Shown here in pieces: positions 5,332 through 7,074 of a stretch of DNA of 64,000 nucleotides; the stretch's first letter is position 1, and the number at the start of each line of letters is the position of its first letter. The stretch lies in contig NZ_AUMC01000010.1 of assembly GCF_000443995.1 (NCBI RefSeq), positions 558,001 through 622,000 on the forward strand, given 5' to 3'. This DNA is from Bacteriovorax sp. BAL6_X (GTDB lineage: Bacteria; Bdellovibrionota; Bacteriovoracia; Bacteriovoracales; Bacteriovoracaceae). The position numbers and the translations under genes were made by a program. Under the pieces are notes generated by a model. That model saw only the letters and a program-made list of their open reading frames with translations, ran no database searches and had not been told where the DNA came from.

Positions 5332-5898
5332 ATGAAAAATATTTTAGTCATCCAAGGTCATTCTGATCCAACATCTCTTACACACTCTCTTGCCAAATCT
5401 TATCTTGAGGCACAGGAGGCGAAGGGAAACCATGTGAGCTTCGTTGATTTATCTGAAATAGAGTTCAATCCTATTTTAGAAAAAGGCTATAAAGAAATCA
5501 TTCCTCTCGAAGAAGTTCTTCTTTCAGCACAAGCTTCTTTAAAAGAGGCCAATCATATTGCAATCTTCTATCCAACTTGGTGGGGAAGTCTTCCTGCTAA
5601 ACTAAAAGGTTTCTTTGATCGCGTATTCTTGCCTGGATTTGCCTTTAAGTTTGAGCAAGGCCAAAGTTTTCAAACCAAACTTCTAAAAGGAAAAACAGCA
5701 ACCATTGTCACGACAATGGATACGCCACCGTTTTTCTATAAGTATGTACAAGGTAACTTGGGACCAAAACTACTTAAAAGCTTAATTCTTGGCTTTTCAG
5801 GAATTAAAACGAAGCAAACGATTTTGGTTGGACCCGTACGCAATTTCAATGATCACAAGACAAGGTCTTGGATAGAGAAAATGAAGTATATTGATTAA
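5332..5898 (+). CDS. Flavodoxin-fold NAD(P)H-dependent oxidoreductase
   Basis: A 188-residue protein of the Flavodoxin_2 family (NQO/MdaB/KefF-like). The N-terminus ILVIQGHSDPTSLTHSLA is the FMN phosphate-binding strand and loop, and FYPTWWGSLPAKLKGFFDRVF is the family's conserved flavin-site motif with the following helix. Such enzymes reduce quinones, azo compounds or similar electrophiles by two electrons with NAD(P)H. GAGGAG precedes the ATG. Control by the divergent TetR protein is likely. It ends 14 bases before the inverted-repeat element at 5913. Confidence 0.88.
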   Translation: MKNILVIQGHSDPTSLTHSLAKSYLEAQEAKGNHVSFVDLSEIEFNPILEKGYKEIIPLEEVLLSAQASLKEANHIAIFYPTWWGSLPAKLKGFFDRVFLPGFAFKFEQGQSFQTKLLKGKTATIVTTMDTPPFFYKYVQGNLGPKLLKSLILGFSGIKTKQTILVGPVRNFNDHKTRSWIEKMKYID

Positions 5899-5912: not shown

Positions 5913-6116
5913 AGGGGCGCGGGTACCATTCGAGATTACGGGAACTTGTAATTGATTTACTCACTTTATTTAGTGAAAATAGAGCTAGATATGTCATAAA
6001 TAAGGCTATCGTGAGTATAGAACACCTAGATTATCTTAGTTCTGATAGATACTTGAGATGAACTGAGTTTGAATCACACGTAAGTATTTATAATCTCGAT
6101 TGGTACCCGCGCCCCT
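5913..6116. mobile_element. 204-bp element with 26-bp terminal inverted repeats (MITE-like candidate)
   Basis: The left arm (5913-5938, starting AGGGGCGCGGGTACCA) and right arm (6091-6116) are inverted repeats matching at 25 of 26 bases. They are unusually GC-rich for this region. The 152-bp interior has no ORF and holds smaller stems (CACT...AGTG near 5963-5976; AGAAC...GTTCT near 6019-6043). The right arm supplies the last two bases of the stop codon of the convergent YeiH-type gene. No clear target duplication is visible. A non-autonomous transposable element is the favoured reading; a structured RNA or bidirectional terminator is possible. Confidence 0.5.
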
Positions 6117-7074
6117 AAGAGATAATATTAGACATGATCAAAGTAAGTGTTGTTACGGCAGTAAAACACCAAAGAAGCACTCCTTGAAGCATTGGCTTAA
6201 TCCCTGCTTCTTTAATATGTTCTAAAGTTATACTAGAGCCAATATAGAAAAGAGTTAATACCATAAGTTTTTTAGCTCCAGCGTAAACCATCATTCCAGT
6301 AGACTTTAACTCAGGAATAAAAGTAACGAGGGCCGCGGCCGTGATGAAGCCTAGGATAAACCAAGGCTTCTTTGTTTTTGTTGTTGTAACAGCGTTTTGT
6401 TTCTTAAGTTGCACGGCAGTTGTAAAGCTAAAGATAAGAGCTAGTGGAATAATCCAAAGAGCACGAACTAGCTTAACAATTGTTCCAACCTCAAGCGCTT
6501 TTGGGCCGTAACTTAAGGCAGCTCCAACAACGGAACTTGTATCATGAATGGCCAAGGCCGACCAAAGTCCAAATGAAGTTTGGTCGATATTTAATAAGTG
6601 GCCAATCCATGGGAAGACGAATAGGGCAATTGCATTTAGTGTAAAAACAACGGCCAAAGATACTGTCACTTCATGATTCTTTGCTTTGATGACTGGAGCG
6701 ACGGCAGCGATTGCACTTCCACCACAAATGGCAGTTCCAGAACTAATTAAAAGAGTAGTGTTAAGAGGAGTTTTAAAAAGCTTTCCTAAAACACTACCGA
6801 CAGCAAAGACCGCTAAGATACTAAGCGCAGTAAAACCAATTGATTGCATCCCAACCTTTGTTACTACATTTAAGTCCATTCCTGCACCTAGGCCAACAAC
6901 TGCAAGGGCAAGTAACTTCTTTACTGCTTTGGTTGTCCAATCCTGAAATGGATTTCCTATAAATAATGAAAATAAGATGCCTGCAAAAAGAGCAATGGCC
7001 GAAGAGGCCCATGGACTTAAGCAAAGGATTGAGAGAATAATGAATAGAAATTTCTTTACGCTTTGATTTTTCAT
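6115..7074 (-). CDS. YeiH/UPF0324 family membrane transporter
   Basis: A 319-residue hydrophobic protein with about nine to ten membrane segments. The hallmark SSGTAICGGSAIAAVAPVI (near residues 112-130) identifies the YeiH/UPF0324 family (Cons_hypoth698), proposed to export sulfite/sulfate-type anions. A second conserved segment, AIHDTSSVVGAALSYG, is present. It is somewhat shorter than E. coli YeiH (about 349 residues), and its stop codon is completed by the inverted-repeat element at 5913-6116, so its C-terminus may have been altered by insertion. It is divergent from the GrpB gene over a 45-bp gap. Confidence 0.88.
   Translation of the reverse strand: MKNQSVKKFLFIILSILCLSPWASSAIALFAGILFSLFIGNPFQDWTTKAVKKLLALAVVGLGAGMDLNVVTKVGMQSIGFTALSILAVFAVGSVLGKLFKTPLNTTLLISSGTAICGGSAIAAVAPVIKAKNHEVTVSLAVVFTLNAIALFVFPWIGHLLNIDQTSFGLWSALAIHDTSSVVGAALSYGPKALEVGTIVKLVRALWIIPLALIFSFTTAVQLKKQNAVTTTKTKKPWFILGFITAAALVTFIPELKSTGMMVYAGAKKLMVLTLFYIGSSITLEHIKEAGIKPMLQGVLLWCFTAVTTLTLIMSNIIS

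Follow-up and report, generated by a model that had tools for sequence, protein, structure and literature searches.

REPIN-like paired repeats of Bacteriovorax sp. BAL6_X with an AA/TT rhythm in register with their arms

A structured element between two convergent genes

What kind of element lies at positions 5913–6116 of the window, the 64,000-nucleotide stretch of the Bacteriovorax sp. BAL6_X genome analysed here, bounded by inverted repeats and without a gene of its own? An earlier note, made from the sequence alone, had described 26-bp inverted arms bounding 204 bp, GC-rich around an AT-rich interior. Both features hold: positions 5913–5938 and 6091–6116 match at 25 of 26 bases, and the GC content is 0.58 in the arm and 0.32 in the interior, against 0.37 for the window. 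Nowhere else in the window do 14-mers recur as exact inverted pairs no more than 400 bp apart; ten Markov surrogates of the window contained 0, 0, 0, 0, 0, 0, 4, 0, 0 and 1 such pairs.

While the arms are real, the conserved unit extends beyond 26 bp. An alignment of 30 arms delimits a 35-bp unit, in which the outer 14–19 bp are specific to a family and the common inner part ends in an ACTTA box at positions 31–35. The left arm (5914–5948, plus strand) has the outer sequence GGGGCGCGGGTACC and the inner box ACTTG at 5944–5948. The right arm (6081–6115) is inverted, on the minus strand, with the outer sequence GGGGCGCGGGTACC and the inner box ACTTA (TAAGT on the plus strand, 6081–6085). The whole doublet, as we call two such arms with their interior, runs for 202 bp from GGGG at one outer end to CCCC at the other; positions 5913–6116 take in one more base at either side. 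The interior (5949–6080), like the doublet as a whole, is assigned to neither strand, and its sequence shows no conservation.

The fold of the entire element is much more stable than those of shuffled versions of it (z −8.25). The ‘internal stems’ reported earlier are unremarkable, because the interior alone folds no better than shuffled sequence (z −1.1); the interiors of doublets in general gave values between −1.9 and +1.0. As had been claimed for the interior, no open reading frame of 60 or more codons lies in the element, and only the YeiH-type frame overlaps the last two bases of the element. A search of Rfam returned nothing above chance (best E 0.82).

The element separates two convergent genes. 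On its left, a Flavodoxin_2-type oxidoreductase (5332–5898, plus strand) ends 15 bp before the arm; on its right, the stop codon of a YeiH-type (Cons_hypoth698) gene (6115–7074, minus strand) overlaps the right arm, which supplies the last two bases of TAG, much as the earlier note had it. The suggestion that this gene is shorter than usual was not borne out: it matches positions 33–334 of the 335 in TIGR00698 and is not clearly truncated. A YeiH orthologue is absent from the 15 nearest relatives, and the gene may therefore have been acquired horizontally.

Copies, empty sites and the associated transposase

The element is the only copy in the window, as had been noted, and a genome-wide search showed outright that it is not unique. 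Using patterns anchored on a few arm sequences, we found at least 16 doublets in four families (A–D) in the 3.23-Mb genome, which is assembled in 10 contigs. Family A has five full elements (C3:496k, C3:757k, C6:585k, C6:653k and C10:564k), with the element in the window catalogued as copy 5, and lone arms at C3:755.9k, C6:654.2k, C6:655.0k and on C8. Families B (GGTACGTCGATAC..), C (GGTACGCGGACAC..) and D comprise six, four and one doublets, respectively, so that copy number ranges from 1 to 6 per family. Hits to these patterns that lacked the inner ACTTA box (G085, G116, G120, G128, G136, G145 and similar) were set aside as chance matches or other REP classes. In 57 relatives no match to the family A arm was found, and the interior gave two weak hits only.

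Two side observations concern individual copies. The reading frame of a PfkB-type gene (L031 4775–5720; C3:757.3–758.2k) continues through a family A arm, so that the element supplies its last 12 codons and its stop. In addition, a 120-aa gene with an arm behind it (L033 4172–4700 and 6047–6256; L034 1–230) occurs both at the end of C6 and at the start of C8, with nearly identical interiors; this is probably a segmental repeat of recent origin at which the assembly broke.

Evidence that the doublets move comes from the relative G012, where two doublets of 251 bp align without gaps at 95.6% identity over their full length, interiors and all, inside flanks that are unrelated except for 8 bp on the left. 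Doublets therefore move as whole units. The earlier note had proposed looking for empty orthologous sites, and since the YeiH and PfkB orthologues are absent or not syntenic in relatives, the comparison was made at two sister loci, both of which proved empty. At B3 (MurJ, DUF507, site, next gene) synteny is kept in seven relatives and the doublet occurs in none of them; at A1 the doublet is absent from three relatives that retain both neighbours. Target duplications, also sought at the note's suggestion, were found at none of the 16 doublets. Most simply, then, the doublets are RAYT-mobilised insertions that leave no target duplication; loss from every relative, in place of insertion at B3 and A1, would be a less simple alternative.

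These sites also bear on the reading of the element as a bidirectional terminator, or as a structure that stabilises mRNA 3′ ends, between convergent genes. Its position between two convergent stop codons and its very stable fold would suit such a role. However, the region holds no site resembling an intrinsic terminator, the orthologous convergent sites of sister copies carry small ordinary terminators or none and never a doublet, and at B3 in BAL6_X the native terminator is kept, with the doublet placed after it. Half of the doublets lie between convergent genes and nearly all begin no more than about 20 bp from a stop codon, yet several sit between tandem genes. With neither a stem followed by a T-run nor conservation at orthologous sites, we rejected the bidirectional terminator, and consider a terminating or stabilising role very improbable.

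The transposase gene with matching ends that the earlier note had asked for was found, and it is of the RAYT (HuH, ‘REP-associated tyrosine transposase’) type. In families A, B and C alike, a RAYT gene stands beside arms of its own family, and in families B and C this gene adjoins a doublet; for family D a RAYT was not found. A Y1_Tnp gene lies at C3:755906–756577 (Pfam E 1.4e-7) and scores 58 bits against NCBIfam NF047646 (REP_Tyr_transpos), below the cut-off of 80. The stop codon of the family A RAYT gene lies across the inner end of a lone arm of this family, and the gene is part of a two-gene unit that has a full family A doublet at its other end. Between this RAYT and the adjoining doublet lies a 229-aa membrane protein (L031 4082–4771) with weak similarity to BPSS1780/YciC, which may be a passenger. 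By sequence, the solved structure nearest to the RAYT profile is E. coli TnpA-REP (4er8, E 1.3e-9), and fold comparison with an AlphaFold model made for L123, the Halobacteriovorax marinus homologue (pLDDT 85.5), likewise places 4er8 nearest. Residues H61, H63 and Y120 are invariant, giving the HxH motif and catalytic tyrosine of a Y1 HuH fold.

Most RAYT loci examined in Bdellovibrionota have an inverted arm pair flanking the gene, with an arm sequence that differs between loci. Arms of 35 bp that carry the inner box go with a single RAYT clade (support 96/89); the sister RAYT L126, labelled negative in the clade tree, nevertheless has a similar arm on one flank. Among 27 RAYT arms, the outer end tends to form an imperfect 13-nt hairpin (86 pairs against 56.7, sd 5.5), which is weak in family A. 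From adjacency and co-occurrence, the RAYT may be supposed to bind these arms. A fourth RAYT of the genome (L068, C6:333500–338000, 2004–2779) has arms of another class, GTAGGTGCCATGCTCCTTTGGTTTCGCACCTGC, without an ACTTA box and followed by short tandem pieces, TGGCACCTACTCT.

The earlier suggestion of a MITE-type insertion or a new structured repeat family is thus right in that the doublets are mobile, multi-copy and non-autonomous. It does not stand as a classical MITE: the associated enzyme is a RAYT/HuH transposase and target duplications are lacking, so the doublets are REPIN-like. A MITE derived from a DDE transposon would share their shortness, lack of coding content and terminal inverted repeats; with no target duplication at 16 doublets and arms that border RAYT genes, we regard that origin as hardly credible.

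Interior lengths and the AA/TT rhythm

The interiors of the BAL6_X copies are no more similar to one another than shuffled sequence, and yet their lengths are not free. The 16 doublets measure, between outer ends, 189, 200 (three), 201 (five), 202 (two), 203, 211 (two), 220 and 221 bp, and those of other genomes 179, 199, 211, 212, 242, 251, 274 and 296 bp. With one entry per family and class, lengths fall in steps of about 10.5 bp (R 0.78, p 1e-4 against jittered lengths), although the observed lengths may not be fully independent of one another. Allowing any period between 8 and 14 bp gave p 0.002, and restricting the set to lengths found after the idea had been noted gave p 0.005 at 10.5 bp and 0.085 with any period. 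Doublets of 110 and 384 bp break the rule, and adding these lengths to the conservative set weakened the result to p 0.002 at 10.5 bp.

The interiors furthermore share a rhythm of AA/TT dinucleotides. This signal was first met in an exploratory test on 15 doublets and was later checked against controls and other genomes. Mean spectral power at 10.3 bp is 6.18 in the interiors, compared with 1.47 (sd 0.34) when sets of 16 intergenic controls are drawn and 1.30 (sd 0.32) in shuffles, and the fitted period is 10.26 bp (10.10–10.45). Counted from the outer ends, the average profile has AA/TT peaks near 15, 23, 33, 43.5, 53.5, 64.5, 74, 84.5, 95 and 106 bp, with G/C steps in counter-phase. The register from the left end lies between 1.1 and 3.2 bp in all 16 doublets of the genome (R 0.92), and eight doublets of other genomes, in which the rhythm is weaker, keep nearly the same mean register (1.9 vs 2.2 bp; R 0.73, p 0.014). 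Coherent power is 78 inside doublets, 0.7 just outside them and 4 in lone arms. The rhythm, being absent outside, low in lone arms and locked to the arms in register, is thus tied to complete doublets and their arms; it is absent at the ends of the RAYT-bearing units.

The strength of the signal varies among copies. That of the window follows the 10.26-bp period in register with its arms (power 4.3, left phase 3.1 bp), a modest signal when taken alone, in the top 2.1% of window segments, whereas B3 and B5 have almost no AA/TT power. Tandem repeats as a source of the rhythm were absent from the element in the window, and base identity at lags of 10 and 11 (0.31–0.33) is little above that at other lags.

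A wedge model assigned the interiors only modest static curvature, which does not support a strong intrinsic bend. The AA/TT pattern therefore points to rotational bendability, of the kind seen in wrapped or looped DNA, more than to a rigid bend. One arm-locked 10-bp rhythm shared by unrelated middles suggests that what is kept in evolution is the form of a DNA loop and not its sequence. In alignment, such a spacer appears unconserved and can still carry a strong shape signal, and where unrelated spacers keep one rhythm and whole-turn lengths, the sequence bears the mark of selection on a two-site DNA complex.

Candidate complexes and known relatives

We lean towards reading the element as a non-autonomous RAYT (TnpA-REP, HuH) doublet, REPIN/BIME-like, in which two RAYT-type sites close a helically phased, bendable loop. 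RAYT or a partner would bind both arms on duplex DNA and hold them together, with the interior as an evolved bendable loop of about 17–28 helical turns; bending energy would give rise to the AA/TT rhythm and torsional closure to the length steps. The loop and its protein we infer because inverted sites, whole-turn spacing and registered bendability are what selection by a protein-closed loop is expected to leave. Such a loop may serve as a synaptic complex for transposition, or as a retained chromosome-looping site at gene 3′ ends. More tentatively, and at somewhat less than an even chance, we picture mobile DNA with a mechanical code as its cargo: selection would act on two protein sites and on phasing and bendability while the letters drift, and a transposase that closes whole-turn loops would have turned in part into a DNA-architecture protein. 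How RAYT/REP systems persist for so long without behaving as ordinary transposons is an open question on which the doublets bear.

Against a duplex loop stands the fact that known RAYTs act on single-stranded DNA (PMC8266576), a substrate on which helical phase would not matter. In an ordinary REPIN, the single-stranded hairpin would be the functional form for RAYT transposition, and the length classes and rhythm would be side effects. The inverted arms could indeed pair as a long hairpin, most RAYT arms tend towards an imperfect hairpin over their outer 13 nt, and RAYTs work on single-stranded hairpins (PMC8266576). However, a hairpin loop has no need of helical phase in the interior or of stepped lengths, and covariation between the two arms of one element beyond the family consensus is not significant (p 0.10). 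We therefore judge this account improbable.

The main rival to the RAYT-closed loop is wrapping by gyrase or another nucleoid protein. Here a DNA-bending protein of the host (DNA gyrase, known from E. coli BIME-2, or else HU or a bacterial histone) would wrap the doublet and act on supercoiling at gene 3′ ends, and RAYT would only spread the doublet; we consider this unlikely, though less so than the hairpin account. In E. coli, the G/C content of the gyrase motif varies in a 10-bp phase, and BIME-2 elements and the regions downstream of transcribed operons are enriched in gyrase sites (PMC6379681). The doublets similarly lie at gene 3′ ends, nearly all of them starting at most some 20 bp from a stop codon and half of them between convergent genes, and Bdellovibrio has DNA-bending histones (PMC12701072). 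The likeness to BIME-2/gyrase sites is one of phased G/C content only. The doublets have no conserved central core, as a cleavage site would need, and their rhythm is registered with the ends and runs unbroken through the centre. The gyrase model used 10.7 bp per turn (PMC6379681), against 10.26 (10.10–10.45) in doublets. Furthermore, no single wrap size accommodates lengths between 179 and 296 bp, and the register is set by RAYT-family arms.

Returning to the RAYT doublet, we file the element as working like a REPIN/BIME with its RAYT (PMC3116915, PMC6006769, PMC8266576) without being a canonical REPIN. As in REPINs and BIMEs (PMC3116915), two inverted conserved ends enclose a less conserved spacer at extragenic sites, an arrangement present at 16 doublets of BAL6_X; a cognate RAYT occurs in the genome, and the doublet moves as a unit, as in the G012 pair. 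It is set apart by the lack of a GT[AG]G foot at the arms (none in the alignment of 30 arms), by few copies (1–6 doublets per family where tens to hundreds are expected of REPINs), by long bipartite 35-bp arms with an inner ACTTA box, and by a phased interior. Some RAYT subclasses also lack GT[AG]G (PMC6006769). The spacer of about 110–230 bp, with helical phase and whole-turn lengths, also differs from the spacing of REPs in P. fluorescens, 71 and 110 bp (PMC3116915). A literature search found no published report of helical phasing in REPINs; helical length steps despite unrelated interiors, and a single arm-registered AA/TT versus G/C rhythm, look new.

Two further systems are related. In REPtrons, a RAYT gene is flanked by its REPs (PMC6006769), and here too locus-specific arms hug the RAYT and co-diverge with it, but most loci have exactly one inverted pair, 680–900 bp apart, and an outer motif GGTRC..YTTTT in place of the GT[AG]G foot. 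IS200/IS605 elements share a related HuH transposase fold, the absence of target duplication and, as a tendency of the RAYT arms, a short imperfect hairpin at the outer end, whereas the present system has long inverted arms and non-autonomous doublets, and TnpB was not seen beside the RAYT genes.

Other paired repeats were met in other genomes. The relative G016 (L117–L120) carries many short doublets of constant 65-bp length (GGTACGTGGACACTTTTGCTAA..), with near-identical interiors and without the inner box, in a genome where no Y1_Tnp gene was found. In G019, the 384-bp inner-box doublet (L292 2079–2462) includes a short, membrane-like open reading frame of about 23 codons, possibly a small cargo gene.
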